DNA from: Caenispirillum bisanense
GTDB taxonomy: Bacteria; Pseudomonadota; Alphaproteobacteria; Rhodospirillales; UBA2165
Length of the DNA stretch: 64,000 nt
Reading direction: 5' to 3'
NCBI GenBank assembly: GCA_945877815.1
Contig: CAMDWJ010000014.1
Span: 1 to 64,000 of the forward strand
Shown: in pieces, positions 108-27,900 of the stretch
Numbering within the stretch: the first letter of the stretch is position 1
How the letters are laid out: each line of letters opens with the position of its first letter
The notes under the pieces: model-generated
The model's database searches: none
Seen by the model: the letters and a program-made list of their open reading frames with translations, nothing else
What the model was told of the DNA's origin: nothing
Program-made: the position numbers and the translations under genes

Positions 108-590
108 TCAACAGTTCTTCAATTCCATTCCAAACGTCGAGGAGCCAAAATCTTCCAAGAGCTCGTTGGTCTGGCGGATGCGCATGCAAAGCACGCGCAA
201 CAGATCGATGGTGAGCTTGGGGTTGTTTTCCAGGGTCTTGATAAAATCGTCGCGCTGCAGTGCCAGCACCTCGGTCGCCTCATTGGCAATGGCGTCGGTC
301 GAGCGCTCGTGGCCGTCTATCAGCGCGATTTCACCGAACACGTCGCCTGGGTTCATGGTGGCGAAGATGATCTTGTCGCCTTCGTGGCTGGGCGAGGATA
401 TCTGCACCCGGCCGTTGACCACGACCATCATATGGGCGGCCGCGTCGCCGCGCCGGAAAATCGTCTCGTCGGCCCCGAACGCCTTGATTTCGGCGCGTTT
501 GGCCAGCGCCGACAGGTCCTTCTCCGACAAATGCCGAAGCAAGAAATGTTCGGCCAATAATCGTTGTTTTTCGACGTCCGTCAGCGTCAT
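108..590 (-). CDS. Crp/Fnr-like cyclic-nucleotide-binding domain protein, apparently lacking a C-terminal HTH
   Basis: Protein has cNMP-binding beta-roll motifs (FRRGDAAAHMMVVVNGRVQIS, GDVFGEIALIDGHERSTDAIA); the ORF stops soon after the dimerisation helix (RIRQTNELLEDFGSS). Confidence 0.8.
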   Translation of the reverse strand: MTLTDVEKQRLLAEHFLLRHLSEKDLSALAKRAEIKAFGADETIFRRGDAAAHMMVVVNGRVQISSPSHEGDKIIFATMNPGDVFGEIALIDGHERSTDAIANEATEVLALQRDDFIKTLENNPKLTIDLLRVLCMRIRQTNELLEDFGSSTFGMELKNC

Positions 591-691: not shown

Positions 692-1834
692 CTACTTTTT
701 CTCGAAAATTTCTTTCCAGTCGCGCGGATAACTCTCCTGATACTTCTCCCAATCGGCGATTCCGATCGTCCAGACCTGGCTCGCCGGTGGAAAGGTATAA
801 CTGCCCTGGGCGGGCGACGGGGCGGCGGGATGGGTCCCGTAGGAGCCCTGTTCGCTGACCTTGGAACTGCCCGCCTTGCTGAGCACATAACTCATATAAA
901 GCCGCGCGGCGTTGGGGTGTTTGGCGTTTGCGGTAACGTTCCCGATCTCGCCGAAGGCGGCCAGGCCCTCGGCCGGGAAGATGACCTTCACCGGGGCTTT
1001 GTTTTCGATTTCGCGGATATAGCCGGACGCGCCCGATACGCCGATGCTGGTGCGGCCGCGCACGAGGTCGGAGACGGTGGGTGCGGCGGTGGCATAGATG
1101 CGGGGCTCGTTGACGGCGAGCATTTGCCAGGCGTCCGGCGCAATTTTGAGGCGCAGAAAGGCGTACAGCGTGAGAGCGCTGCCGCCGGCATCCATCGAGG
1201 GCATGCCGATCTTGCCCTTCCATTTCGGATCGAACAGGTCGGTCCAACTCTTTGGATAGTCGACCTCCTTGACGGTCTCGGTATTGACCGCGATCGCCGT
1301 GATCGGCCGCACGACGTAATACCAACGCCCTTGTGCGTCTTTAAGTTCGGCTGGCAGGACATCGAAGGTGGGAACCTTGTAGGCGGCGAGGATGCCCTGA
1401 TCCATCCAGGCCTTGATCAGCGGCAGATCGGTGAGGCCGACATAATCGGCGTCGAGTTTCTTGGCGCCATGTTCCGCGAGCACGCGATCGTACATCTTGG
1501 CGGTCGGCAGGCGGATGTAATCATAGACGATCCCGGTTTCCTTCTTGAACTGATCGAGTGTGATGCTCATCGATTCGGTCGGGATGGTGCCGTAGAGAGT
1601 GAACTGTCCTTCTTTCTTGGCCGCCGCAAACAACGCGGCATCGGCGATTTTTTCGCCGTCAACGATGAAATCCTGGGCTTGGCCTGGTCGCGTCGCGGCG
1701 AGGGTGGCTATCGCCGAGACGACAAGCGCGACGGCGGCGGAACGTAATAGGGGGGCCTTGCTCACCGCGGTCCTTACTTTCGATTGAAGATCGTCTTCCA
1801 TTCGTCGACCCAGGTTTCGTGAATCTTGTCCCAT
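692..1834 (-). CDS. ABC transporter extracellular solute-binding protein, array copy 1 (start uncertain, may be an internal start near 1763-1801)
   Basis: Signal peptide and the shared motifs of the array: QxxxVDGEKIADAALFAAAKKEGQFTLYGT, KMYDRVLAE, YPKSWTDLFDPKWKGKIGMPSMDAGGSALTLYAFLR, AKHPNAARLYMSYVLSKAGS, GSYGTHP. Confidence 0.9.
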   Translation of the reverse strand: MGQDSRNLGRRMEDDLQSKVRTAVSKAPLLRSAAVALVVSAIATLAATRPGQAQDFIVDGEKIADAALFAAAKKEGQFTLYGTIPTESMSITLDQFKKETGIVYDYIRLPTAKMYDRVLAEHGAKKLDADYVGLTDLPLIKAWMDQGILAAYKVPTFDVLPAELKDAQGRWYYVVRPITAIAVNTETVKEVDYPKSWTDLFDPKWKGKIGMPSMDAGGSALTLYAFLRLKIAPDAWQMLAVNEPRIYATAAPTVSDLVRGRTSIGVSGASGYIREIENKAPVKVIFPAEGLAAFGEIGNVTANAKHPNAARLYMSYVLSKAGSSKVSEQGSYGTHPAAPSPAQGSYTFPPASQVWTIGIADWEKYQESYPRDWKEIFEKK

Positions 1835-2838
1835 TGCTCCGCCTCGATATTCCAGACTTTCTCCTGCGGCGGAAATTTGTAGCCCGATGCCTCGGGCGGG
1901 GGTGCCTCGGGATGCACGCCGTAGGATCCCGAATGTGCTATGAAGGTGCTACCGCGCTTGCTGGTCAGGTAGTTAACATACACGCGCGCGGCGTTGGGAT
2001 GTTTCGCCGTCGCCGTCAGGTTCCCCATTGCGCCAAAGGCTGCCATACCTTCGGCGGGCAGGATGATCTTGATTGGCGCGCCGTTCTCTATCTGATCGGA
2101 GAGTGTTGAGGCCGTCGCATAGGCTGCGGCGATGCGCCCGCGCACCAGATCGTTGATGACGGGCGCGATCGTCGCATAAGTGCGCGGCTCGTTGGCTGCG
2201 ATCTTTTCCCACGATTTCGGATCGACTTGCAGGCGCAGGAAGGCGAACAGCGTGAGTGCGCTGCCGCCCGCTTCGATCGACTGCATGCCAAACTTGCCTT
2301 TCCATTTGGGCTCGAATGTTTCGGCCCAGCTTTTCGGATAGTCTGCTTCCTTAACCATCTCGGTATTGACCGCGATGGTCTGGATGGCCCGCACCGTCGA
2401 GTACCAATGGCCGTCCTTGTCCTTCAGCGCGGGCGCGATCTTGTCATGCCACGGCACCTTGTGGGCGCCCAGAATGCCGCGCGACATCCATTCCTTGATC
2501 AGGGTGTGATCGGTGAGATCGGCGTAGTCGGCATCCAGCTTGCCGGCGGCGAATTCGGCGACCACGCGATCATAGAGTTTCGAAGTCGGGACGCGGACAT
2601 ATTCGACGGTGAGGCCGGTTTCCTTGCGGAACCCGTCCAACAGTTCGGCCATGCTCTCGCTTTGAATGACACCATAGGCATAAAGGCCGCCTTCGGCGCG
2701 CGCCGCCGCCATTAGCTTCACGTCGGCGATTTCTTCGCCGCCAACGACGACAGCCTGGGCGTGCGCTACGTGCTGCAACAGGATCGTAAAAGCGAGAGTA
2801 ATGGAGGCAGAACGCAGGACGGTATTGATCCGCTTCAT
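1774..2838 (-). CDS. ABC transporter extracellular solute-binding protein, array copy 2
   Basis: 354 aa, signal peptide, same motif set (GEEIADVKLMAAARAEGGLYAYG, DPKSWEKIAANEPRTYATIAPVINDLVRGR, GSYGVHP). Confidence 0.92.
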   Translation of the reverse strand: MKRINTVLRSASITLAFTILLQHVAHAQAVVVGGEEIADVKLMAAARAEGGLYAYGVIQSESMAELLDGFRKETGLTVEYVRVPTSKLYDRVVAEFAAGKLDADYADLTDHTLIKEWMSRGILGAHKVPWHDKIAPALKDKDGHWYSTVRAIQTIAVNTEMVKEADYPKSWAETFEPKWKGKFGMQSIEAGGSALTLFAFLRLQVDPKSWEKIAANEPRTYATIAPVINDLVRGRIAAAYATASTLSDQIENGAPIKIILPAEGMAAFGAMGNLTATAKHPNAARVYVNYLTSKRGSTFIAHSGSYGVHPEAPPPEASGYKFPPQEKVWNIEAEQWDKIHETWVDEWKTIFNRK

Positions 2839-2844
2839 TTCATC

Positions 2845-3909
2845 TCACTTTCGGTTGAACAGTACACGCCATTCCTCGGGCCAGGTTTCGTGAATTTGAT
2901 CCCACTGTTCCGGCGGTACGACCCAGACCTGATTTTGGGGTGGGAATTTGTAGCCCGCCGCTTCCGGAGCAGGCGAGTCGGGGTGCGTGCCGTAAGAGCC
3001 GCTGAGCGACATCAGGGTGCTGCCGCGTTTGCTGGTCATATAGTTGACGAAAATCTTGGCCGAATTCGGATGCTTGGCGGTCGATGTGACGTTGCCGAAC
3101 GCGCCGAAGGCGGCGATCCCTTCGGCGGGCAGGATGATCTTGAGCGGTGCTTTGTTCTCGATCTGCCCGGAAAAGGATGCCGCCCCGCCATAGGCCATGG
3201 CGACGCGTCCGCGCACCAGATCGTTCACGGCGGGCGCCATCGTTGCGTATGTGCGCGGATCGTTGGCCGCGATCTTCTCCCATGCTTTCGGGTCTACCTT
3301 GGTGCGTAGGAAGGCGAAAAGCGTGAGCGCACTTCCGCCCGCATCGATCGATTGCATGCCGATTTTGCCTTTCCACTTCGGATCGAAGGTGTCGGCCCAG
3401 CTCTTCGGATAGTCGGCTTCTTTCACCAGTTCGGTGTTCACCGCGATCGTCTGGATAGGTCGCACGATGTAATACCAATATCCGTCCTTGTCGCGCAGTT
3501 CGGGGGAGATCCTGTCATGCCACGGAACCTTGTGGGCCGCGAGGATGCCGCGGTTGACCCAATCTTGGATCAGCGTGAGATCGGTGAGGTCGACATAGTC
3601 CGCGTCGAGTTTTCCGGCTGAAAATTCGGCGATAACGCGGTCGTACAGTTTCGAGGTCGGTACTCGGACATAGTCGATCGCAAGGCCGGTATCCCTTTTG
3701 AACCCGTCGAGCGCGTCGCTCATGCTTTCGGTTGAGTAGGTGCCGTAGACGTTGAGCTCGCCTTCGGCCTTGGCGGCGGCGTACAGCTTGGCGTCGGCGA
3801 TTTCCTCGCCGTCGACAACGAGGGCTTGGGAACAAGCGGAGCTATAAGCGCCGGTGCCGAGAATGATGCCGGACATCGCGGCGATCGTTGCGAGGATCAT
3901 GCGGAACAT
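2845..3909 (-). CDS. ABC transporter extracellular solute-binding protein, array copy 3
   Basis: 354 aa, same motif set (GEEIADAKLYAAAKAEGELNVYGTYSTESM, GSYGTHPDSPAP). Confidence 0.92.
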   Translation of the reverse strand: MFRMILATIAAMSGIILGTGAYSSACSQALVVDGEEIADAKLYAAAKAEGELNVYGTYSTESMSDALDGFKRDTGLAIDYVRVPTSKLYDRVIAEFSAGKLDADYVDLTDLTLIQDWVNRGILAAHKVPWHDRISPELRDKDGYWYYIVRPIQTIAVNTELVKEADYPKSWADTFDPKWKGKIGMQSIDAGGSALTLFAFLRTKVDPKAWEKIAANDPRTYATMAPAVNDLVRGRVAMAYGGAASFSGQIENKAPLKIILPAEGIAAFGAFGNVTSTAKHPNSAKIFVNYMTSKRGSTLMSLSGSYGTHPDSPAPEAAGYKFPPQNQVWVVPPEQWDQIHETWPEEWRVLFNRK

Positions 3910-3958
3910 TTAGGCCTCCCGTGCGATGGGTGACATCGCGCTCTTTATCTTGTTCGAT

Positions 3959-5023
3959 CTACTTTCGATTGAAGATCGTCTTCCATTCGTCGAACCAGGA
4001 TTCGTGGATCGTGTCCCACTGCTCGGCGGTGACGATCCAGACCTTGTCCTGCGGCGGCAGCGGCGAGCCGGCGACGATCGGTACCGGCGAGTCCGGATGT
4101 GTGCCGTACGATCCCGTCTTCGAGATCAGGGTGCTTCCTTTTTTACTGGTCAAATAATTCACGTAAAGTTTTGCCGCGTTGGGGTGCTTCGCCGTTGTGG
4201 TCACATTGCCCATGCCGCCGAACGCCGCGACGCCCTCGGTTGGAACGATGATCTTGAGCGGTGCGCCGTTCTCCATTTGCTCAGTGAAGGAGGAAGCTCC
4301 GCCATAAGCCAACGCCGTGCGGCCGCGTACCAGATCGTTAATCGTAGGCGCGCTGCTGGTATAGGTGCGCGGATTGAGGGCTGCGACCTTTTTCCAGGCG
4401 TCGGGATCGACTTCGAGACGTAGGAAGGCGAAGAGTGTGCGTGCCGCACCGCCGCCATCGATGGAGGGCATGCCGGTCTTGTCCTTCCATTTGGGATCGA
4501 AGGTATCCTTCCAGCTTATCGGATAATCGGCTTCCTTGATGATCTCGGTGTTCACCGCGAACAACTGCACGGGGCGGTAAACGTAGACCCAGCGGCCATC
4601 CTTATCGCGCAGCTTCGGCGAAATGCGGTCGTGCCATGGCACCTTATGCACGCCCAGAATATCGCGCGACATCCATTCCTTGATGAGCGCGTAGTCCGTC
4701 AGGTCGATATAATCGACATCGAGCTTGCCCGCTGAAAATTCGGCGACGACCCGTTCGTAGAGGCGTGAGGAGCCGACGCGGATGTAGTCGATCTTGAGGC
4801 CGGTATCTTTGCGGAACTCATCTAATGTTTCGGCGATGGTTTCCGACGCATATGTTCCATAGACGCTGAGTTCCTTTTCCGCGCGCGCCGCAGCAAAGAG
4901 TTTCGCGTCTGCAATTTCCTCACCCTCAACCACGAGGGCTTGGGAAAAGGCGGGGCTATAAGCGCCGACGCCAAGAACGAAACAGGATGCAACGGCACCC
5001 GCTGCGAGGATCGTGCGAAGCAT
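3959..5023 (-). CDS. ABC transporter extracellular solute-binding protein, array copy 4
   Basis: 354 aa, same motif set (GEEIADAKLFAAARAEKELSVYGTYASETIAETLDEFRKDTGLKIDYIRV). Confidence 0.92.
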   Translation of the reverse strand: MLRTILAAGAVASCFVLGVGAYSPAFSQALVVEGEEIADAKLFAAARAEKELSVYGTYASETIAETLDEFRKDTGLKIDYIRVGSSRLYERVVAEFSAGKLDVDYIDLTDYALIKEWMSRDILGVHKVPWHDRISPKLRDKDGRWVYVYRPVQLFAVNTEIIKEADYPISWKDTFDPKWKDKTGMPSIDGGGAARTLFAFLRLEVDPDAWKKVAALNPRTYTSSAPTINDLVRGRTALAYGGASSFTEQMENGAPLKIIVPTEGVAAFGGMGNVTTTAKHPNAAKLYVNYLTSKKGSTLISKTGSYGTHPDSPVPIVAGSPLPPQDKVWIVTAEQWDTIHESWFDEWKTIFNRK

Positions 5024-5073
5024 ATGGGCCTCCCATGTGATCGGGCGGTACGCCGCCCGTTATTTCGTTCAAA

Positions 5074-6138
5074 TTATTTGCGGTTGAAGATGACCTTCCA
5101 TTCTTCGAACCATGTCTCGTGAATCTTGTCCCACTGCTCGGCGTCGATGTTCCAGACCTTATCGTGCGGCGGCAATTGCACGCCTGCGATGACCGGCGCC
5201 GGCGAATCCGGATGAGTGCCGTAGGAACCGCTTTTGGCGATCAATGTGCTGCCCTTCTTGCTGGTCATGTAGTTGACATAGACCTTCGCAGCGTTCGGAT
5301 GCTTCGCCGTACTGGTCACATTACCCATGCCGCCGAAAGCCGCGACACCTTCGGTGGGCAGGATGACTTTGAGAGGGGCGCCGTTCTCGATCTGCTCTGT
5401 GAAGGACGATGCACCGCCATAGGCCGCGCTGGTGCGTCCGCGCACCAGATCATTCACGTTGGGAGCACTGCTGGGATAGGTGCGGGGATTGAGTGCCGCG
5501 ATCTTTTTCCAAGAGTCGGGATCGACCTCCATTCGCAGGAAGGAAAAAAGAGTGAGGGCCGCGCCGCCGCCTTCGATGTTTGGCATGCCCATCTTGCCTT
5601 GCCACTTGGGATCGAAGGTATCCTTCCAGCTTTTCGGATAATCGGCTTCCTTCACCAGTTCGGTATTCACCGCGATGGTCTGTACGGGTCGATAGACGAA
5701 AACCCAATAACCGTCGTCGTTGCGCAGAGCATGCGGAAGCCTTTCGTGCCAGGGCGTCTTGTGCTTGGCCAGGATGCCACGCGACATCCATTCCTTGATC
5801 AGTGTGTGATCGGTCAGGTCGGCATAATCGACCTCCAGCTTGCCGGCCGAAAATTCGGCGAGCACGCGATCGTAAAGCCGCGACGTCGGAACGCGGATAT
5901 ATTCGATCTTGAGCCCCGTATCCTTGCGGAATCCATCGAGTGCATCGCTCAGATTGTCGCTGGGATAGGTTCCGTAGACATTCAGTTCTTTTTCCGCCCG
6001 TGCCGCCGCCATCAGCTTGGCATCTGCGATTTCCTCGCCATCGATGACGAGAGCCTGGGCGCGGACCTCGGAGAAGACGGCGGCGCTCAACATCAGGCCG
6101 ACCGCTACAAGAATTGCCGTTTGTGTGATGCGAGACAT
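5074..6138 (-). CDS. ABC transporter extracellular solute-binding protein, array copy 5
   Basis: Same motif set; start chosen at MSRITQTAILVAVGLML (signal peptide); the ORF is open to 6192. Confidence 0.92.
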   Translation of the reverse strand: MSRITQTAILVAVGLMLSAAVFSEVRAQALVIDGEEIADAKLMAAARAEKELNVYGTYPSDNLSDALDGFRKDTGLKIEYIRVPTSRLYDRVLAEFSAGKLEVDYADLTDHTLIKEWMSRGILAKHKTPWHERLPHALRNDDGYWVFVYRPVQTIAVNTELVKEADYPKSWKDTFDPKWQGKMGMPNIEGGGAALTLFSFLRMEVDPDSWKKIAALNPRTYPSSAPNVNDLVRGRTSAAYGGASSFTEQIENGAPLKVILPTEGVAAFGGMGNVTSTAKHPNAAKVYVNYMTSKKGSTLIAKSGSYGTHPDSPAPVIAGVQLPPHDKVWNIDAEQWDKIHETWFEEWKVIFNRK

Positions 6139-6164
6139 CGCTCGTCCTCCCAATATGTTCGTGA

Positions 6165-7223
6165 TTATTTCTTGAGAACCACGTCTTTCCATTCCTGCTG
6201 CCAGGGCTGCGAGATCTTGTCCCAGAGATCGGCCTGGATGGTCCAGACCTTGTCCTGCGGCGGGAAGGTGATGCCGGGAGCCGACGGCGGAGCGGCATCG
6301 GGATGCGTCCCGTAGGCGCCCGAGGTCGACATCAACGACGAGCCGTGTTTGCTGGTCACGTAGTTGATCCAGACCTTGCCCGCGTTCGGATGCTTGGCGG
6401 TCGAGGTGACATTGCCGAATGCGCCGAAGCTGGCGATGCCTTCGGCCGGAAAGATCGCCTTGAGCGGAGCGCCGTCCTTCGTTTGCGCGACGATGGAATT
6501 GGCATCGACGTAAGCGAGCGGCGTGCGACCGCGCACGAGATCGCTGATAACCGGTGCGATGGTCGCCTGGAAGCGCGGCTCATTCTGCGCGAGCAAATTC
6601 CATGCGTTGTCGGCGACCTTGATGCGAAGGAACGAATGAAGCGTGACGGCGCTGCCACCGGCGTCGATCGACTGCATGCCGACCTTGCCCTTCCACTTGG
6701 GTTCAAGCGTCTCCTTCCAGGTCTTCGGGTAATCTTTTTCCGAGACTTCGGCGGTATTGACGCCGATCACATAAATCGGGCGCACGATGTAATACCAGCG
6801 GCCATCGGGATGCTTGAGATTGTCCGCAATCTTGTCGTGCCAAGGAACCTTGTGGGCTGCCAGCACGCCGCGCGAGACCCATTCCTTGATGAGCGTCAGA
6901 TCGGTGAGATCGGCGTAATCGGCCTCAAGCTTGTTGGATGCGAATTCGGCGAGCACGCGGTCGTACATGCGCGACGAGGGGATGCGGACATATTCGAGCG
7001 CGATGCCCGTATCCTTCTTGAACCCGTCGAGCACCGGCTGGATGGCCTCGGTCGGATAGGCGCCGTAGACATCGACGCGGCCCTCTTTTTTTGCGGCAGC
7101 AAACAGTGTGGCATCCGCGATTTCTTCTCCGTTGACTACGAGGGCTTGGGCGCGTGCCTCGCCATAGGCGAGAGCGGAAACGGCGAGGCTCAGCGCCAGA
7201 CCGGTTAAAATATTTTTCGTCAT
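6165..7223 (-). CDS. ABC transporter extracellular solute-binding protein, array copy 6
   Basis: Same motif set; start chosen at MTKNILTGLALSLAVSALAYGEARAQ; the ORF is open to 7235. Confidence 0.92.
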   Translation of the reverse strand: MTKNILTGLALSLAVSALAYGEARAQALVVNGEEIADATLFAAAKKEGRVDVYGAYPTEAIQPVLDGFKKDTGIALEYVRIPSSRMYDRVLAEFASNKLEADYADLTDLTLIKEWVSRGVLAAHKVPWHDKIADNLKHPDGRWYYIVRPIYVIGVNTAEVSEKDYPKTWKETLEPKWKGKVGMQSIDAGGSAVTLHSFLRIKVADNAWNLLAQNEPRFQATIAPVISDLVRGRTPLAYVDANSIVAQTKDGAPLKAIFPAEGIASFGAFGNVTSTAKHPNAGKVWINYVTSKHGSSLMSTSGAYGTHPDAAPPSAPGITFPPQDKVWTIQADLWDKISQPWQQEWKDVVLKK

Positions 7224-7299
7224 GAATGCTCCCATTGGTTCGGCGCATTAATCGCCGGCTGCAATTACCTTCGACTCTAACATCTCAATCGAAATCGGA

Positions 7300-8355
7300 C
7301 TACTTCTGCTGGAATACCTGTTTCCACTCAGTGGGCCAGGATTCGTGATATTTCTCCCATTCGTCGGGCTTGATGGTCCAAACCTGCGCGGGCGGCGGAT
7401 AGGATTGTCCGCGAAACGACGGGGGCGCTGCCTCGCTGTGGGTTCCGTATGAGCCAGTTGCGGCCACCAATTGGCTTCCATGTTTGCTGGTCACGTAATT
7501 CATCCAAACCTTGGCCGCGTTCGGATGCTTCGCCTTGCTGGTGACGTTTCCGATGGACCCGAACGAGGCGAGTCCTTCGCTCGGAAAGATCATTTTGAGC
7601 GGCGCACCATTTTCAATTTGGCCTGTAATGGCCGATGCGCCGCAGTAACATATGGAAATGCGGCCGCGCACGAGATCGTTCGCGATGGGTGCCGCCGACG
7701 CATAAAGACGCGGCTCGTTCGCCGCGATCTTGGCCCACGCATCCTCGCCGATCTTCAGACGCTGAAACGAATAAAGCGTCAGCGCGCTGCCACCGGCATC
7801 GATGCTGACCGTTCCGATCTTGCCCTTCCATTTCGGATCGAATGTGTCGCGCCAACTTTTCGGATAGTCCTTCTCGGCGACCTCGGCGGTATTCACGCCG
7901 AGCACATAGGTCGGGCGGACGAGATAATACCAATAGCCGTCGGGATCGCGCAGTTCGTCGGGCAGCTTGGCGAAGGACGGCACTTTGTGCTCGACGAAGA
8001 TGCCGCGCTCTTTCCATATCTTCGCGAGGGAGAGATCGGTCAGGTCGGCGTAATCGGCGTCCATCTTATCGGCTTCGAATTCGCGGCTCAGCCGTTCGAA
8101 CATTTGGAAGCCCGGCAGGCGGACGTAATCGAGATCGAGCTTCGTGTCTTTCTTGAAGGCTTCGAGAACCGGTCCGATGGTTTCGCTGGGATAGGTGCCA
8201 TACAAATTAACGCGCCCTTCGGACTTGGCGGCGCCCATCAGTTTGGCGTCGGCGATTTCCTCGCCGCTGATGATAAGCGCCTGGGCCTGTGCGGGTATGT
8301 CTGCGAACAGTAGTGCAATCGCCGTTGCGCCGGCCATTGTGCATCTAAGCAGCAT
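7300..8355 (-). CDS. ABC transporter extracellular solute-binding protein, array copy 7
   Basis: 351 aa, same motif set (GEEIADAKLMGAAKSEGRVNLYGTYPSETIGPVLEAFKKDT). Confidence 0.92.
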   Translation of the reverse strand: MLLRCTMAGATAIALLFADIPAQAQALIISGEEIADAKLMGAAKSEGRVNLYGTYPSETIGPVLEAFKKDTKLDLDYVRLPGFQMFERLSREFEADKMDADYADLTDLSLAKIWKERGIFVEHKVPSFAKLPDELRDPDGYWYYLVRPTYVLGVNTAEVAEKDYPKSWRDTFDPKWKGKIGTVSIDAGGSALTLYSFQRLKIGEDAWAKIAANEPRLYASAAPIANDLVRGRISICYCGASAITGQIENGAPLKMIFPSEGLASFGSIGNVTSKAKHPNAAKVWMNYVTSKHGSQLVAATGSYGTHSEAAPPSFRGQSYPPPAQVWTIKPDEWEKYHESWPTEWKQVFQQK

Positions 8356-8385
8356 GGCGTTCCTCCCATTTATGACGGCGTTCGG

Positions 8386-9444
8386 TTATTTTTTTTCGAA
8401 AGCCGCGCGCCACTCCTGCGGATAATTGTCGACGATCTTGGACCAGGTATCGATATCGAGCGTGTAGACCTTATCTTGCGGCGGGAAGGTGTAGCCCGCG
8501 CCTTGCGGTGCCGGTGCATCCATGTGCGTGCCGTAGGATCCGGTCTTCGACATCAAGGTGCTGCCGTATTTGCTGGTGACATAGTTGACCCATACCTTGG
8601 CGGCGTTGGGGTGTTTTGCAGTTGCGGACACGTTGCCCATCGCGCCGAACGCTACTAGCCCCTCTTCGGGGATGATGATCTTGATGGGCGCCTTTTGCTC
8701 CTCGATCATCTGCAACATGCTGGATGCGCCGACCGTTGCGATTGAGGTGCGGCCGCGCTGCAGATCGTTTTGTACTGGAATCGCAGTTGCCTGGATGCGC
8801 GGTTCATTCGCGGCTAACTGCTTCCACGAGTCGGGACCGATCTTATTGCGCCAGAAGGCGTACAGCGCCAACGCGCTGCCCCCGGCGTCGAGATGAGGCA
8901 TGCCGATCAGGCCTTTGTATTTCGGGTTCAGCAAATCCCGCCAGGCTTTGGGATAATCGGCTTCCTTGAGAATTTCAGTATTTACGGCGATGACCTGAAT
9001 CGGTCGAACGATGTAATACCACCGTCCTCGCTCGTCGCGCAGGTTAGGGGCGATCTTGTCGAAGGCCGGCACCTTATGTTCGGCCAACACGCCGCGCTCC
9101 ATCCATCCTTTGATGAGTTGCAGATCGGTGAGATCCACGTAATCGGCTTCGAGCCGTCCGGCGGCGAATTCGGCGAGTACGCGATCGTACATGCGCGATG
9201 TTGGCAGGCGGACGTAGTCGAGCGCCAAGCCGGTATCCTTTTTGAACTGACCGAGTACGGACTGCAGCGACTCGCTGGGATAGGTGCCGTAGATGTCGAT
9301 GCGCCCTTCGGCTTTCGCGGCGGCCATCAATTTGGCGTCGGCGATTTCCTCGCCGTCCTTCACCAGGGCTTGCGCCTGGGCGCGAGGGGCCAAGGCGCAG
9401 AAGGCCAGTGCCGCGGCCGATACGGCAATTGCGAGACGGTTCAT
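8386..9444 (-). CDS. ABC transporter extracellular solute-binding protein, array copy 8 (closest to permease)
   Basis: Same motif set; start chosen at MNRLAIAVSAAALAFCALAPRAQAQ (signal peptide); the ORF is open to 9567, overlapping the permease. Confidence 0.92.
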   Translation of the reverse strand: MNRLAIAVSAAALAFCALAPRAQAQALVKDGEEIADAKLMAAAKAEGRIDIYGTYPSESLQSVLGQFKKDTGLALDYVRLPTSRMYDRVLAEFAAGRLEADYVDLTDLQLIKGWMERGVLAEHKVPAFDKIAPNLRDERGRWYYIVRPIQVIAVNTEILKEADYPKAWRDLLNPKYKGLIGMPHLDAGGSALALYAFWRNKIGPDSWKQLAANEPRIQATAIPVQNDLQRGRTSIATVGASSMLQMIEEQKAPIKIIIPEEGLVAFGAMGNVSATAKHPNAAKVWVNYVTSKYGSTLMSKTGSYGTHMDAPAPQGAGYTFPPQDKVYTLDIDTWSKIVDNYPQEWRAAFEKK

Positions 9445-9473
9445 CACTCTTCTCCCTGTTGCGGTGAAGCCGC

Positions 9474-11180
9474 CTAAAGCGCGGCCCTCATATATTTGCG
9501 CCCGACGAGTGCCAAGATGGCCAGCAGCAACGTATAGAGCAGGCTGACGGTGGCGGCGCCCGACCAAGAACCGTCATCCAGTTTCTCGAAGACGACGATC
9601 GAGAGAACGCGCGAATTCGCGGTGTAGAGGAACAGCGACGAAGTCAGTTCCCGCAGGCCGAAAATAATCATCAGGAACATGGCCGACACCACACCGCCGC
9701 GTAGCAGCGGCAAGGTGATGCGCCGGACCATCTGCGCGCGCGAGGCACCCGAAACCAGAGCGGCATGTTCGAGATCGTCGTGGATCTGATGCATCGAGGC
9801 GGAGATCACGCGGTAGCCGGCGGGCATGAACTTGCCGATGAAGGAGACGATGATCACCAAGATCGTGCCATAGATGGGCAACGGCACGGCAACCCAGGTC
9901 CACAGAATGCCGAGTGCCATCACGAGGCCGGGCACGGCGAGCGGCAGCATCGCGATATATTCGAGCCCTTGCCGGCCGGGCAGATCTGTGCGGTTCACCA
10001 CGTAACAGACGATGAAATACAGCCCGACGCCGAACACCGCGACCGTGCCGCCCGCGATCAGGCTGTTCAGCAATCCGGCGTAGACCGCGCGGTCGTTGAG
10101 GATATTGACGAAATTCTTGGTGGTCATCTGCGTAATATCGAACAGGGAGGCGAGATCGCGGATGAACAGATTGGGACGGAACGCACCCTGGATGAGCGCG
10201 AACAGCGGCAGGCCAACGGCGAGGATGAAGTAAAGCAGGACGAACGCCGCGGCGAACCAGCGCAACTTGCCGAGGGGGATCATCCGCGCCTGAGCGCCCT
10301 TGCCGGTCAATGTGCGATAGTCACGTCCCTTCAAGATTGCGCGTTGCGTGAAGACAAGGCAGCAGACAATGGCGGTCAAAAAGACCGCGACAGCGCTCGC
10401 CTGGTTGGGATTGGCGGGCGCGGTCGACATCAGACTGTAGATGCGAATCGACAGGGTCTCGATGCCGGCGGGAAAGCCCAAGATCTGCGGGATCGGGAAA
10501 TCCTCGACCATGAAGACGAAGATCAGCAGCATCGAGCCAATGATGGCGGGCTTCACGAGCGGAAAAGTAATCTTGCCGAGAATTCTGCGAGTCGTTCCGC
10601 CATGCACGGCGGCGGATTCCTCCATGTCGGGATTCACCAACGTCAACGCGCTATAGAGAAAGATATAGGGGAACGGGGTGAAATAGAGCCCGAGGAGAAA
10701 GGCCATACCGCCGATCGATTCGATCTCAAGCTCCAGCGGAATGCCAAGCTGGCGCAGGATCATGTTCAGATAGGCCGACTTGCCTGATGCGAGCAGCGCC
10801 CAGGCGACGGCGGCGATGAGCTGCGAGACGAAAATCGGCATGATGCCGGCGAGATGGATGAATGGCTTCCACGGAATGTCGCTGCGCGCGGCCAGCCAAG
10901 CCATGCCGCATCCGAAGATCATGGAAATCGCCGTCCCGATCACCGACATGATCAGGGTATTGGTCAGGGCGCGGGCATTTTCCGGCCGCCACAGGGCGGC
11001 GAAGTTGGCCAGAGTGAAGTTGGGCGCGCGGCTGGCCGAGAAGGGCGCGACATCGACAAACGACGTATAGAGCACCATGCAGCACGGCACTATGATGAGA
11101 ATCGCCAGGATGGCGTACAATAGGGCCGGGACCGAAATGCGGACCAGATTGCGGCCGAGCGCTGTGTGCGTGAACTGCAT
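9474..11180 (-). CDS. ABC transporter permease, two fused BPD_transp_1-type domains (FbpB-like architecture)
   Basis: 568 aa, many TM segments; two inner-membrane permease EAA-type regions (ESAAVHGGTTRRILGKITFPLVKPA and EHAALVSGASRAQMVRRITLPLLRGG). Confidence 0.93.
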   Translation of the reverse strand: MQFTHTALGRNLVRISVPALLYAILAILIIVPCCMVLYTSFVDVAPFSASRAPNFTLANFAALWRPENARALTNTLIMSVIGTAISMIFGCGMAWLAARSDIPWKPFIHLAGIMPIFVSQLIAAVAWALLASGKSAYLNMILRQLGIPLELEIESIGGMAFLLGLYFTPFPYIFLYSALTLVNPDMEESAAVHGGTTRRILGKITFPLVKPAIIGSMLLIFVFMVEDFPIPQILGFPAGIETLSIRIYSLMSTAPANPNQASAVAVFLTAIVCCLVFTQRAILKGRDYRTLTGKGAQARMIPLGKLRWFAAAFVLLYFILAVGLPLFALIQGAFRPNLFIRDLASLFDITQMTTKNFVNILNDRAVYAGLLNSLIAGGTVAVFGVGLYFIVCYVVNRTDLPGRQGLEYIAMLPLAVPGLVMALGILWTWVAVPLPIYGTILVIIVSFIGKFMPAGYRVISASMHQIHDDLEHAALVSGASRAQMVRRITLPLLRGGVVSAMFLMIIFGLRELTSSLFLYTANSRVLSIVVFEKLDDGSWSGAATVSLLYTLLLAILALVGRKYMRAAL

Positions 11181-11185
11181 TGGCG

Positions 11186-12289
11186 CTATTCCTTTGGCAG
11201 CAATAGCATGTTGCGTGGGACGACGGTGAGTGCCACGCGGGTTCCAATGCGGATGTCGGCGGTCACATCGCGTGCCAGCGCTTCCCAGATCAGATTGTCG
11301 TGCACCTTGATGCGGTATTGCATATGCGAGCCGATAAAGCTCGCCAGCAGGACATCGCCGACCAGGGTATTTTCCGGGAGGTCGGCGGTACTGGCGTTCG
11401 CGTCGATCTTGCGGATTTCGATATCGTCGGGACGGGCGCAGGCGACGATGCCGGCCGCACCCTCCGGGGGCGGTCCCTCGGCGCGCATTTTCTGCCCGTT
11501 CGCGGCCAGGGTCACGATCGTCGAATTGCCTTCGCGGCTGGTGACGGTCGCGTCGAAAATGTTGGAATAGCCGAGGAAGTCCGCGATCGTGCTGGTGCGC
11601 GGCCGGTGATAGAGCGTGACCGGATCGTCCTCCTGCATCACGTGGCCGAACTGCATCACCACGATCTTATCGGCCAAGGCCAGGGCTTCTTTTTGGTCGT
11701 GCGTGACGTAGACGCTCGTGATCTTGAGCTGGGTCTGCAATTCGCGCAGCTGCACGCGCAGATGGTCGCGCAGGCGGGCGTCAAGATTGGAGAGCGGCTC
11801 GTCGAACAGCAGGATTGACGGCTGCATGACGAGGCTGCGCGCCAGCGCCACCCGTTGCATTTGCCCGCCGGACAGGTAGCTGGCACCGCGATCGTCGAAG
11901 CCAGACAATCCAACGAGCTTCAGGATATCGGTGACACGGCGCTTGATCTCGCTCTTACTCACGTTGGCCATCTCGAGCGGGAAGGACACGTTCTGGAAGA
12001 CAGTCATGTGGGGCCAGATGGCGTAGGACTGGAAGACCATGCCGACCTTACGCTGGTTGGTCGGCACGTTTATGCCCTGTGCATGGTCGTAGACGATGCG
12101 CCCGCCGATGGCGATATGACCGGTGTCGGGGCTTTCCAGGCCGGCGATGCAGCGCATCGTCGTGGTCTTGCCGCAGCCGGAGGGCCCGAGCAGGACGAGC
12201 ATCTCGCCCTCGGCTATATCAATGTTGATTCCGGCAATCGCCGCAGTGTCCCCGTAGGTTTTGCGCAGGTTCTTGATTTCGATGGTCAT
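11186..12289 (-). CDS. ABC transporter ATP-binding protein (FbpC/PotA-like, with C-terminal TOBE-like region)
   Basis: Walker A GPSGCGKTTTMR, signature YLSGGQMQRVALARSLV, Walker B ILLFDEPLSNLD. Confidence 0.96.
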   Translation of the reverse strand: MTIEIKNLRKTYGDTAAIAGINIDIAEGEMLVLLGPSGCGKTTTMRCIAGLESPDTGHIAIGGRIVYDHAQGINVPTNQRKVGMVFQSYAIWPHMTVFQNVSFPLEMANVSKSEIKRRVTDILKLVGLSGFDDRGASYLSGGQMQRVALARSLVMQPSILLFDEPLSNLDARLRDHLRVQLRELQTQLKITSVYVTHDQKEALALADKIVVMQFGHVMQEDDPVTLYHRPRTSTIADFLGYSNIFDATVTSREGNSTIVTLAANGQKMRAEGPPPEGAAGIVACARPDDIEIRKIDANASTADLPENTLVGDVLLASFIGSHMQYRIKVHDNLIWEALARDVTADIRIGTRVALTVVPRNMLLLPKE

Positions 12290-12400
12290 TAGGCGAATTT
12301 CCTCCCCTCGTCAGGCCGCATCTTGGCCAGCATGCCCGATAATGTAAATATAGATCGAGATTAACTCTGTTATCGCCTTGCCTGCGGAGGAGAGCCCGTT

Positions 12401-12928
12401 ATGAGCGAAAAACCCCCTTATCGTTTCAGTTTCGAAAATGAGGTGAAGCCATACCGCATCCAGCCGCCGAAAAGCCCGAAGGATATCTTCCTTCGTATGG
12501 TCGAAGGCACTGATATCAGCATCATGCTGGCATCGCGTGACGCAGGCTACCACACCCAGCCCCATCAGCACGATGCCGAGCAGTTCAATTATATCGTCGA
12601 GGGCGAATTATGGATATTCGTCGAGGAGCACGGTTATCGTTGCGTGAAGGGCGATATCATGCGCGTGCCGCGCAATAAAATCCATTGGGCCTGGAACCGC
12701 GGTACCGGCCCGTGCGTGATGCTGGAAGCTCACACCCCGCCATTGACCGGCGAGGCGATGATCAAGATCGGCGCGGTGGCGATGCTGGCACCCGACGAGG
12801 TGGCGCTCGATGGCGTCACCAACTTGCAGGTTCCCTATCCGCAAATGGCAGAGGTCGAGGAGCGCGCGATCCGCGAACCTTTCGAAGCGAACCGCCAGCC
12901 GGTCCGCAGCCTCGTTCCGGCCGAATAG
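12401..12928 (+). CDS. Cupin-domain protein
   Basis: Cupin motif-like YHTQPHQHDAEQFNYIVEGELWIFVEE..GDIMRVPRNKIHW; divergent from the ABC operon. Confidence 0.85.
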   Translation: MSEKPPYRFSFENEVKPYRIQPPKSPKDIFLRMVEGTDISIMLASRDAGYHTQPHQHDAEQFNYIVEGELWIFVEEHGYRCVKGDIMRVPRNKIHWAWNRGTGPCVMLEAHTPPLTGEAMIKIGAVAMLAPDEVALDGVTNLQVPYPQMAEVEERAIREPFEANRQPVRSLVPAE

Positions 12929-12938
12929 GACCGAGTAG

Positions 12939-13139
12939 CTAGGCGAGAATAGGACGACCGCCTTTCGGTCCGAGCAGCAGACCGAGCAGCAGACCGAGCA
13001 GCGGGAAGACAAGGATAACGACGGTCCACAGCACCTTGGCGCCGGTCGAGGACGAGCTTTGGACTGTTTTAACAATGGCATAGATATCGAAGATGAGAAT
13101 GATCAGACCGATCAATCCGCCAACCTGTACGTCGATCAT
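12939..13139 (-). CDS. Small membrane protein, PLDc_N (phospholipase D nuclease N-terminal)-like
   Basis: 66 aa with two TM segments (GLIGLIILIFDIYAIVKTV.. KVLWTVVILVFPLLGLLLGLLLG). Confidence 0.7.
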   Translation of the reverse strand: MIDVQVGGLIGLIILIFDIYAIVKTVQSSSSTGAKVLWTVVILVFPLLGLLLGLLLGPKGGRPILA

Positions 13140-13202
13140 GGCGAAGTCCCGTCTATAGTTGCGTGCAGGAGGACAACCTCGCCGGGCGGCAAAGGTTCCG
13201 TC

Positions 13203-13967
13203 TCACCCGATAAAGTCGACCGTCACCATCTCGAAGGGGATCTCGCGTTCGCACACCGGCGGCGGTGGCATCGTGACCCGCTTGACGATGCGAAAGCGCG
13301 TCGTCGAGAGGCCATTCTCGGGGTAGCTGGGATCTGGACCCGCCCCCCAGCGCTGACGATAAAGAGCCTCGTTGCGGGCCGCGTCCGGTGTCGGGCTGTA
13401 ATCGTCGTTCTGGCCTTCGTTCTTGTGATCGAGCGCATCGAAGGTGCCCTTGCGGCGACCGAGCTTGAACCCGGCCGCGGTCAGGCGGTCGCGCAGATCG
13501 TGGTCTTCCCAACCCCATCCCCAGTAATCGGTGGCATAGCCGTTGGCCGCCTCGAACTGGCGGTTCTTGAGCAGCACCACGGTGGCGAACATCTCGTCGA
13601 GCGGGTTCTCGACGATGTTCTTCGAAACACCCGGATTGAGCGGCCGCGTCTCCGCGCCGTACCACACGATCATCGAGGGCAGGCTCGGCATCGAATAATC
13701 CGCCCAAATGGGAAGGTAATCGACGTCGTGGAAACAGACGTAATCGATCGACTCCTTGAGAAGCTGATAGCCGATGTTGCGTAGCAGCCCGCGGTTGAAC
13801 GGCAGGCCCGGGACCTGCTCGACGAAAACGAAGCGGACCGGAATATGGCGGTCGTTCTTATCGCGCGAGAAATAGGCCGCGAGGTGGGGAACGAAACGGC
13901 GCAGATGCTCCGCCCGATCGCGGTAGGGAATGACCACGCCGAGACGGGGCAGCCGCTTGGTGTTCAT
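13203..13967 (-). CDS. Galactosyltransferase-like protein, GT7 / beta-1,4-galactosyltransferase family
   Basis: Start at MNTKRLPRLGVVIPYRDRAEHL; contains VIPYRDRAEHL, PFNRGLLRNIGY, YVCFHDVDYLP and YWGWGWEDHDLRDRL, resembling animal beta4GalT motifs. Confidence 0.82.
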   Translation of the reverse strand: MNTKRLPRLGVVIPYRDRAEHLRRFVPHLAAYFSRDKNDRHIPVRFVFVEQVPGLPFNRGLLRNIGYQLLKESIDYVCFHDVDYLPIWADYSMPSLPSMIVWYGAETRPLNPGVSKNIVENPLDEMFATVVLLKNRQFEAANGYATDYWGWGWEDHDLRDRLTAAGFKLGRRKGTFDALDHKNEGQNDDYSPTPDAARNEALYRQRWGAGPDPSYPENGLSTTRFRIVKRVTMPPPPVCEREIPFEMVTVDFIG

Positions 13968-14812
13968 CGAAGGCTGTCTTCCAAAAGCGCGCGCAATTCG
14001 TTCGTTACCTCGGTCTCGATGCCGAACCAGGCCTTCCAGGCGGGGCGTCCTTGATGGAGCAGCATGCCGAGTCCGTTGACGGTCTGGTGACCGCGCGCGC
14101 GCGCCGCAGCCAGGAACGGCGTCTCCAGCGGAACATAGACGATATCGGCGACGACCGCCGAAGCGGGCAGCGCGTCGAGCCGAATATCGAGCGCCGGCTG
14201 GCCGACCATGCCCTGGCTGGTCGTGTTGACGACGATGGCCGCACCCGCCAGGGCATCGTGCCGCCAATCCCAGGGATGTGCCGCGAGGGGGGCGCCGAAA
14301 TCCGCGGCCAATTTCTGAGCGCGCTCGTTCGAACGGTTGACGATGCGGATCTCGGTTACGCCTGCTTGCATCAGTGCGAAGGCGACCGCCCGCGCACCGC
14401 CGCCGGCACCCAGCACGACCGCAGGCCCCGCATCGGCGCGCCAGGCCGGGATGGATTGGCGCAGGTTTTCGATGAAGCCGAAGCAATCGTTGTTGGTGCC
14501 GGCGAGCGCGCCGTCGGCCTTCACAGTGACGCAGCTGATCGCGCCGATGCGTTGGGCGACCTCGTCGACCTCGTCAACCAGTGCCATCGCCGCCTGTTTA
14601 TGCGGGATCGTCAGATTGCACCCAGAGAAACCGAGGGGCCCTAGCGCACGCAAGGCGGCGCCAAGCCCATCCGGCGCAATGGCGAGCGGCACGTAGGTTC
14701 CGGCCAAGCCATGTCGCTTGAACCAAAAATTATGCAGTAGCGGCGAGCGCGAATGCATCACCGGCCAACCCATCACGCCGGCGAGCAGGAAGCGCCGCGG
14801 CACTTCGGACAT
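13964..14812 (-). CDS. aroE: Shikimate dehydrogenase family protein
   Basis: GWPVMHSRSPLLHNFWF, NLTIPHKQAA, NNDCFGFIENL, VVLGAGGGARAVAFAL, VVNTTSQGMVGQP; overlaps the next gene by 4 bp. Confidence 0.88.
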   Translation of the reverse strand: MSEVPRRFLLAGVMGWPVMHSRSPLLHNFWFKRHGLAGTYVPLAIAPDGLGAALRALGPLGFSGCNLTIPHKQAAMALVDEVDEVAQRIGAISCVTVKADGALAGTNNDCFGFIENLRQSIPAWRADAGPAVVLGAGGGARAVAFALMQAGVTEIRIVNRSNERAQKLAADFGAPLAAHPWDWRHDALAGAAIVVNTTSQGMVGQPALDIRLDALPASAVVADIVYVPLETPFLAAARARGHQTVNGLGMLLHQGRPAWKAWFGIETEVTNELRALLEDSLR

Positions 14813-14820
14813 GTCAGCGA

Positions 14821-15528
14821 TCAGACCAGCTTGGAGTGGAAATGGTCCCAAGTGCGCTTGAACAGCGTGTCGGTCCACAGCTTCGCCTTGGCGGCGGCGC
14901 ATTCTTCCTCGGTGAACGCATAGGGCGTGCCGATCTGCATCGCCATATACTGACGATAGGCGTTCTCTTCGAGGTAATTGGCGAGCACGAAGGCATCGAC
15001 GATGCTTTTGCCGACGGTCACCGCGCCATGCGCCTTCATCATCGCGGCCGGGCGGTCGCCCAGCGTTTCGACGAGGCGGGCCGCCATCGCGAGATTGTTG
15101 ATCGAGTTCGGCGAATCCAGCACCGGCATCGGATAGACCAGCGAGCCTTGTGCGTAGACCGGCATGTAATCATGCCCGGTCATGGTGAGAAACGTCGACC
15201 ATTTCGGATGGGCATGCACGATGGCCTGCACATCGGGCCGCGCCTTATAGATGCCGGCATGCAGATGGAATTCCAACGGCGGCGCGCCGTTGCCCTCGAT
15301 TACCTTGCCGTCCATATCGATTGTGCAGATATCGTCGGTCGTCAGCTTCGCGCGCTGGCACGAGCCGATATTGATGAACATGCGGTCGGCGCCGACGCGG
15401 ATGCTGGCATGGCCGTTGTAATCGATGATATCGGAACTCTCGAGCATGCGAATGCAATCGACGAGCTGCTGTTTTTGCTTTTCCGCTTCGCTCGCGGCCA
15501 GGGCCGTCTTTGTCGATAGGGCGTCCAT
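14821..15528 (-). CDS. Class II aldolase/adducin family protein
   Basis: GHASIRVG, FHLHAGIYKARPDVQAIVHAHPKWS, MMKAHGAVTVGKS. Confidence 0.88.
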   Translation of the reverse strand: MDALSTKTALAASEAEKQKQQLVDCIRMLESSDIIDYNGHASIRVGADRMFINIGSCQRAKLTTDDICTIDMDGKVIEGNGAPPLEFHLHAGIYKARPDVQAIVHAHPKWSTFLTMTGHDYMPVYAQGSLVYPMPVLDSPNSINNLAMAARLVETLGDRPAAMMKAHGAVTVGKSIVDAFVLANYLEENAYRQYMAMQIGTPYAFTEEECAAAKAKLWTDTLFKRTWDHFHSKLV

Positions 15529-16832: not shown

Positions 16833-17228
16833 ATGGCAGGCACACGCACGATCGGCGGCCGCATCGATCTGTACGATTCCCACGCGCTATCCGAGCAATT
16901 GCATGGCTGGATCGACGAGGAAGGCGTCGTCGCTGCGGCCGTGCTGCAGAAGGCGCGGCTCTAAAACACCGACAAACGCTACATCCTCGATGCCCCCGAC
17001 TGGACCCGGCACGGCCGCTCCGCCCCGTTCAGGCGCAACGATCGGATGCAGGACGTTCCGCCGATCGGAATCATCGTCTTTCCCGAAACCGACATCCCGG
17101 TCCGTGCGCGCGCGGCCGGAAAGGGCTTTCCAACGCTCGATGGCTACATCGCCGCGATCGCCGCCGCGCACGGGTTCGCCGTCAATGCCGCCGGTCTGAA
17201 AGTGATCGATCCTTGGCCCGCGCGGTAG
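16833..17228 (+). pseudogene. ORF of unknown function interrupted by one in-frame TAA (16962-16964), preceded by a G10 tract
   Basis: [89 protein letters not shown]...IDPWPAR reads in a single frame apart from one TAA. Confidence 0.6.
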
Positions 17229-17251
17229 TGCCGATCCGTGGCCTCGCTCAG

Positions 17252-17357
17252 GGTTGATGTCGCGCACCTCGTTGACGATGCGGATGGAAACGCGCCCCAG
17301 GAAGTCCATATCGAACGTATAGAAATCCGCCGTCATGCCGTCGGTCGAGGTGACGGT
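17252..17357 (-). pseudogene. Relic of the guaA 3' region
   Basis: Ungapped DNA match to guaA at about 26385-26490 (same offset throughout); protein [34 protein letters not shown] vs Gua[35 protein letters not shown]. Confidence 0.9.
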
Positions 17358-17439
17358 GCGCGCCAATATTAGCGTCAAGTTCGCCTTGATAGATATGGGC
17401 GCGGTCCGCGAGCAGGACATCGCGCCCGACGCAGTGCTG

Positions 17440-17637
17440 CGCCGGGCGGTCGATGTCTGCGGCGCTGGCTTGGTGATATGGGGCTCCGATATCGGCACTT
17501 CGTCCGGCACCTATAAGGAGATTCTCGCGCGGGCGTACTAGTCTGCCAGCCTGCTCATCATCGCCGAGCGCCGCGAGGTGCTGCACGATACGGGGCGGCG
17601 GGTGCTGACGGGGTGGGGGTGGGTGAAGGACCATAGC
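17440..17637 (+). pseudogene. Amidohydrolase C-terminal relic
   Basis: [58 protein letters not shown] resembles the C-terminal end of amidohydrolase-2-type proteins (..DxFGxxxxxWGSD..); interrupted by TAG. Confidence 0.6.
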
Positions 17638-26331: not shown

Positions 26332-27900
26332 TTATTCCCACTCGATCGTGCCGGGCGGCTTCGAGGTCACGTCGTAGACGACGCGGTTGATGCCTTTGAC
26401 CTCGTTGACGATACGGTTGGAGACGCGCCCGAGGAATTCCATATCGAAGTGATAGAAGTCCGCCGTCATGCCGTCGGTCGAGGTGACGGCGCGCAAGGCG
26501 CAGACATTGTCGTAGGTGCGCGCATCGCCCATCACGCCGACGGTTTGGACCGGCAGCAGCACGGCGAAGGCCTGCCAGATGGCATCGTAGAGGCCGGCAT
26601 TGCGGATCTCTTCCAAATAAATCGTATCGGCCTTGCGCAGCACCGAGAGTTTCTCCGCCGTGATCGTGCCGGGGATGCGGATCGCGAGGCCGGGTCCTGG
26701 GAAGGGATGACGGCCGACGAAGCTGTGCGGCAATCCCAGTTCCTGTCCGAGCGCGCGAACCTCGTCCTTGAACAATTCGCGCAAGGGTTCGACCAGCTTC
26801 ATGTTCATGCGTTCGGGCAGGCCGCCGACATTGTGGTGCGACTTGATGGTCACACTCGGTCCGCCCGCGAAGGAAACCGATTCGATCACGTCCGGGTACA
26901 GCGTGCCTTGAGCGAGGAAATCCGCGCCGCCGATTTTTTTCGCTTCTTCCTCGAACACGTCAATAAAGGTGGCACCGATGATCTTGCGCTTGCGCTCCGG
27001 GTCGCTGACACCGTCGAGCTTGCCGAGGAACATCGCCGAGGCATCGCGGTGCACCAGTGGAATGTTGTAGTGATTGCGGAACAGGCTCACGACCTCTTCG
27101 GATTCGCCCGCGCGCATCATTCCGGTATCGACGAAGACGCAAGTCAGCTGATCGCCGAGCGCCTCGTGCAATAGAACCGCGACGACCGAGGAATCGACCC
27201 CGCCCGAGAGGCCGCAAATGACGCGGCCCTTGCCCACTTGTTTGCGCGCGGCCGCGATCGCCTGATCCTTGAAGGCGGCCATGGTCCAGGTGCCGGAGCA
27301 GCCGCAGATGTCGCGCGCGAAGGTTGCGAGCAGTTGGCCGCCGTGCGGGGTATGCACGACCTCGGGATGGAACATGACGCCGTAGAAGCGCCGCGCCTCG
27401 TCGGCGACGACCGCGAAGGGGGCGCCTTCGGAATGGGCCACGACACGAAAACCGGGCGGCAGGGCATCGACCCGGTCGCCGTGGCTCATCCACACCTGCT
27501 CGCGCCCGCCGACCGTCCATGGCCCGTCGGATGCACCGCCGAACAGGGTGCAATCAGCGGATATATCGAGCACCGCACGTCCGAATTCGCGATGCTCCGA
27601 GCTTTGCACCCGCCCGCCCAGTTGAGCGACCATCGTTTGTTGGCCGTAGCAGATGCCGAGCACCGGCAGGCCGAGAGTGAAGACCACATCGGGCGCGCGC
27701 GGGGTATCGGTCGACAGCACAGAGGCAGGCCCGCCCGACAGGATGATCCCCTTGGGATTAAAGGCTTTGATGGTCTCGGCGGTGACCTTATTGAAGGGCT
27801 GGATTTCGCTATAGACACCGGCCTCGCGCACGCGCCGCGCGATCAGCTGGGTGACCTGCGATCCGAAGTCGATGATGAGGATTTTTTCGTCGGCGGACAT
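26332..27900 (-). CDS. guaA: GMP synthase (glutamine-hydrolysing)
   Basis: GATase [11 protein letters not shown]-loop [19 protein letters not shown]-terminal [51 protein letters not shown]. Confidence 0.98.

Follow-up and report, generated by a model that had tools for sequence, protein, structure and literature searches.

A contiguous array of eight paralogous binding-protein genes beside a single ABC translocator in Caenispirillum bisanense

We describe an ABC importer locus of a freshwater-type bacterium in which one ATPase gene and one fused permease gene are followed by eight paralogous solute-binding protein (SBP) genes. Our analysis suggests, and we consider it likely, that these eight SBPs are interchangeable periplasmic receptors of one importer, delivering distinct, related organic anions to the same permease. 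The small organic anions captured would be chemically related, a different one for each SBP; carboxylates, aromatic acids included, are the likeliest candidates, and all eight SBPs would dock on the same permease. An ancestral ATPase-permease-SBP system would have been extended into an array by tandem duplication, each copy then settling on its own ligand. The original prediction had offered three ideas, namely many receptors competing for one translocator, a diversified ligand repertoire and dosage amplification; a diversified repertoire feeding one translocator is the best fit among them, given the orthologue conservation and the cleft positions described below.

Organisation of the array and its proteins

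The array occupies the minus strand at positions 692–12289 of the window (the whole 64,000-nucleotide stretch of DNA that was analysed) and runs head to tail, in transcription order, from the ATPase through the fused permease to SBP1–8 (S1–S8). The first gene of this putative operon (11186..12289) encodes the ABC transporter ATPase, with ABC_tran and TOBE_2 domains, and is followed after 5 nt by the gene for the fused two-half permease (9474..11180; 568 aa), which contains two BPD_transp_1 stretches. The SBP genes are S1 (8386..9447), S2 (7300..8355), S3 (6165..7223), S4 (5074..6138), S5 (3959..5023), S6 (2845..3909), S7 (1774..2838) and S8 (692..1765), all of which are intact minus-strand ORFs according to the ORF list and the alignment. 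The predicted 1:1:8 ratio of ATPase, permease and SBPs is thus borne out by ORFs and domain matches, and the shared motifs quoted with it, such as GSYGTHP, are present in the SBP alignment. Of the predicted SBP length of 350–380 aa, the lower figure stands and the upper end does not, as better start codons give about 350–357 aa. For S8, the start is most likely the GTG at 1765, preceded by AAGGA and situated 8 nt beyond the S7 stop, rather than the ATG at 1834, because the former has a Shine-Dalgarno sequence and the latter would overlap the preceding gene.

The remaining genes of the array are separated by gaps of 6–76 nt, and a GGGAGG-like Shine-Dalgarno site precedes most SBP genes. Internal terminators within the array were at chance level, showing no excess over shuffled sequence and no good candidates, while a sigma-70 promoter scan returned fewer hits than in shuffles and an Rfam scan returned tRNA only. 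The array is probably co-transcribed. GC-rich hairpins are found at 5042–5059 in the S4–S5 gap (−18.9 kcal/mol) and at 3921–3941 in the S5–S6 gap, and larger hairpins occur in the gaps flanking the S4 orthologue of a sister species; such gap hairpins may tune SBP mRNA stability.

Downstream of S8 lies a CRP/FNR-like gene with a cyclic-nucleotide domain (108..590, minus strand), which is cut short near the contig edge that forms position 1 of the window (3.98-Mb assembly). Within positions 1–150 the reading frame of this gene breaks down and the DNA-binding part is lost, while its sister-species homologue, also placed after the array, is intact and full-length (234 aa); the contig-edge sequence at the window start looks unreliable. 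Elsewhere in the window, a 207-aa ORF (16887–17510) matches the C-terminal domain of GMP synthase over about 40 residues only and, as the full guaA gene lies 9 kb away (26332–27900), appears to be an incomplete second copy of it.

All SBPs scanned match SBP_bac_6, SBP_bac_8 and SBP_bac_11 at or far above Pfam cut-offs, and a genome profile search with SBP_bac_6 recovers all eight array members. With SBP, permease and ATPase domains all exceeding Pfam cut-offs, the locus is assigned to ABC importers with an SBP_bac_6-type (class II) SBP. As read from the sequence, the N-terminus of every SBP resembles a signal peptide that ends in A/S-x-A/S-Q and lacks a lipobox, in agreement with the predicted signal peptides. 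An AlphaFold model of S6 (pLDDT 90, pTM 0.84) shows the two-lobed class II SBP fold, matching MctA, FbpA and AfuA with E-values down to 1e-24; the best match is MctA (7f6n, TM 0.76). By sequence, the best solved relatives are 6wce, 8x1a and 4r72 (E 1e-25 to 1e-23). The array SBPs thus have fold and sequence family in common with the AfuA, P5PA and MctA-type class II (cluster D) SBPs, to which they are about 20% identical.

Sister-species array, translocator and orphan receptors

The other genome of the genus examined, a separately assembled MAG of a sister species, carries a collinear array of nine SBP genes, of which eight are complete and one is truncated at the contig end; the CRP-like gene follows here too. 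In a maximum-likelihood tree, S1 pairs with a1 (together with its lineage duplicate a2), S2 with a4 (87% identical), S3 with a5 (84%), S4 with a6 (83%), S6 with a7 (76%), S7 with a8 (83%) and S8 with a9 (79%). Seven of the eight window SBPs therefore have a sister orthologue; S5, which is close to S4, is found in the window genome only, and a2 and the extra S3-like copy a3 in the sister only. Judged by these orthologue pairs, most of the array is older than the species split, with single copies gained or lost later. The sister contig breaks inside the first SBP gene, before any permease or ATPase, and the array permease and ATPase were not found elsewhere in this 90%-complete MAG.

The window genome encodes a further dozen permeases of this kind, none of them above 31% identity (about 26–31%) to the array permease. 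Closer permeases, 54–58% identical, occur in Xanthobacteraceae and Beijerinckiaceae MAGs, where they are found with an ATPase beside or near one SBP, and these relatives have just one SBP of the array family per genome. Since relatives carry one SBP per similar permease, the array is best described as a 1:1:1 system that expanded within this lineage. Across 60 related genomes, both members of the genus had 22 SBP_bac_6 matches apiece versus mostly 0–5 elsewhere, and among the matches listed for these genomes, no other genome had three or more adjacent copies. In a class-wide sample of 385 genomes, with the best five candidates per genome scored, no other genome yielded the array SBP family at E 1e-60, and the best permeases in plasmid records were only 31–35% identical to that of the array.

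The window genome contains a second array on contig C16 (56000–72000, at 5423–15461 therein), with genes for a Rieske oxygenase (LigXa_C), an ATPase, a permease and five SBPs, all in the same orientation and followed by a short-chain dehydrogenase gene; the orthologous locus of the sister species has four SBPs. This array is separate from and independent of the eight-SBP array, and receptor multiplication appears to be a habit of the genus and not a single accident. SBP genes of both groups also occur apart from any permease. On contig C7 (54000–70000, at 2593–11689 therein), three Rieske/LigXa_C-type oxygenase genes are each followed by an SBP gene of the second-array group, with no permease among them; a galactarate/altronate dehydratase-like gene lies between these pairs. 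In both species, a ninth paralogue of the array SBPs is encoded singly on a different contig (L045, 12665–16266; L046, 8369–11867), with no close permease, next to a gene for an FAD-dependent aromatic hydroxylase and, in the sister, also an enoyl-CoA hydratase gene.

These four orphans, together with the CRP-like gene that ends the array in both species, would suit a reading in which several SBPs act partly as sensors, or deliver to other permeases or signalling receptors and not to the neighbouring permease alone. We consider this unlikely, given the tight spacing of the array genes and the low identity of the other fused permeases, and regard the sharing of one permease by all eight SBPs as the probable arrangement. 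More tentatively, and with some doubt on our part, both arrays may exemplify genus-wide 'receptor arrays', that is, single importers with growing lineage-specific SBP cassettes (8–9 and 4–5 members) adapted to different dissolved aromatic or humic-type organic acids, the same importers also being supplied by orphan SBPs that are each paired with one catabolic enzyme.

Selection, binding clefts and probable ligands

The mature array SBPs are 53–77% identical to one another, S4–S7 forming the closest group, so that copies within one genome differ more than orthologues across species (76–87%). For the seven direct orthologue pairs named above (S1 being compared with a1), dN/dS ranges from 0.075 to 0.163, at dS values of 0.7–1.2 that are near saturation and bear on these ratios. 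The lineage duplicates gave higher values, 0.185 for a2 versus S1 and 0.277 for a3 versus S3. On these estimates, purifying selection acts on each array copy separately.

Cleft positions were assigned by reference to the residues that contact ligand in AfuA and P5PA (PMC4546632, PMC8427247). Among paralogues, identity at these positions is 61% versus 60% for the rest of the protein; among orthologues, it is 95% versus 85% overall. At the 16 variable cleft positions, orthologue identity was 0.943 versus 0.831 in columns chosen to match them in paralogue diversity (P about 0.0006). Position sets shifted by 1–3 residues scored almost the same (0.92–0.95), so the cleft signal is regional, not residue-exact. 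A GG(S/A) anion-binding turn, the counterpart of the phosphate-binding SGT in AfuA (PMC4546632), and an Arg (R150 in S6) are kept in every copy, and the ring-side positions vary, which we take to mean that a common type of anchor is combined with ligand bodies that differ. A cleft conserved among orthologues and differing among paralogues suggests distinct ligands, and argues against dosage amplification.

SBPs usually need to outnumber translocators, and the two species do not have the same number of copies, as might be expected if the array held redundant SBPs for the same ligand that raise receptor concentration in a dilute habitat. We nevertheless find this dosage explanation improbable, and do not retain it from the original prediction: the copies are divergent, each has been preserved as a separate orthologue at low dN/dS, and the cleft residues in which they differ are fixed per orthologue. 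An assembly artefact, with array copies duplicated in silico, can be dismissed as having a negligible chance despite the contig edge at which the window begins and the unreliable-looking last bases there, since the copies differ at 23–47% of residues and a collinear array is present in a separately assembled genome; chance or collapsed and expanded repeats are likewise excluded by the pairwise identities.

The ligands of the eight SBPs are predicted to be organic, partly aromatic, carboxylates, a best guess to which we give an even chance. The aromatic hydroxylase and enoyl-CoA hydratase genes next to the orphan ninth paralogue count towards this class. SBP neighbours in the relatives include CoA-ligase, enoyl-CoA hydratase and acyl-CoA dehydrogenase genes, and we count the best structural match, the Mg-citrate-binding MctA, towards carboxylates; genes of a known ligand pathway are absent from the array itself. 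The genes flanking the array in the window (those for a cupin, shikimate dehydrogenase and two class II aldolases) were rejected as a guide to the substrate, the cupin and aldolase flank not being syntenic in the sister species.

Other functions were also considered. The nearest-model annotation of iron import is not supported; AfuA offers a precedent for mis-annotation as an iron SBP (PMC4546632). FbpA binds ferric iron through adjacent tyrosines in its second lobe; in the sequence alignment, region 238–250 of the array SBPs shows no such Tyr-Tyr pair in any copy. The ring ligands of AfuA itself, His205, Asp206 and Glu229 (PMC4546632), are replaced by S/N/A, S/A/T/G and A/V, respectively, in an alignment of roughly 20% identity, which speaks against an AfuA-like sugar-phosphate importer. 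The nearest curated models for all three parts are NCBIfam PhnS2, PhnU2 and PhnT2, which describe a putative 2-aminoethylphosphonate importer with the same design of ATPase, fused permease and SBP. All components score far below the equivalog cut-offs: the ATPase scores 329.6 bits against the PhnT2 cut-off of 457.7, the SBPs 35–86 of 392.75 bits (PhnS2) and the permease 136 of 593 (PhnU2). SBPs of this kind annotated as 'iron' or 'aminoethylphosphonate' proteins are thus probably neither.

Comparison with known multi-receptor importers

Should the eight SBPs share a permease yet bind different ligands, the locus would be a natural experiment with one importer and many receptors, in which the evolution of SBP specificity after duplication could be traced through collinear orthologues in two species. 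It would also explain how many dissolved organic acids can be scavenged through one importer.

That one ABC translocator can be served by many SBPs is already known, and the description of the locus as an undescribed system was therefore overstated. In Pseudomonas aeruginosa, DppA1–A5 share the DppBCDF translocator and have distinct thermal-shift profiles (PMC4206461, PMC12728205); DppA1–A4 adjoin the transporter genes, the fifth being encoded elsewhere. Streptococcus pneumoniae Ami, with AmiA and AliA–AliD, and Borrelia Opp, with OppA1–5, likewise place several lipoprotein SBPs on one oligopeptide permease (PMC11192437, PMC12830385). As in these systems, the genes for several paralogous SBPs are linked here to those of one translocator. 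Dpp differs from the present array in having a dipeptide SBP family with known ligands, five SBPs and a four-gene translocator. The SBPs of Ami and Borrelia Opp are peptide binders from a different family (SBP_bac_5 in the case of Ami), number five at most and are in part scattered over the genome. In the literature searched, we found no case with as many receptors in one contiguous array. What sets the present locus apart is how many SBP genes lie side by side, that the array is conserved in a sister species and that its genome carries another array, independent of the first; relative to Dpp, Ami and Opp, the new elements are eight or more contiguous SBPs, the evolution of such arrays twice over and the probable organic or aromatic acid ligands.
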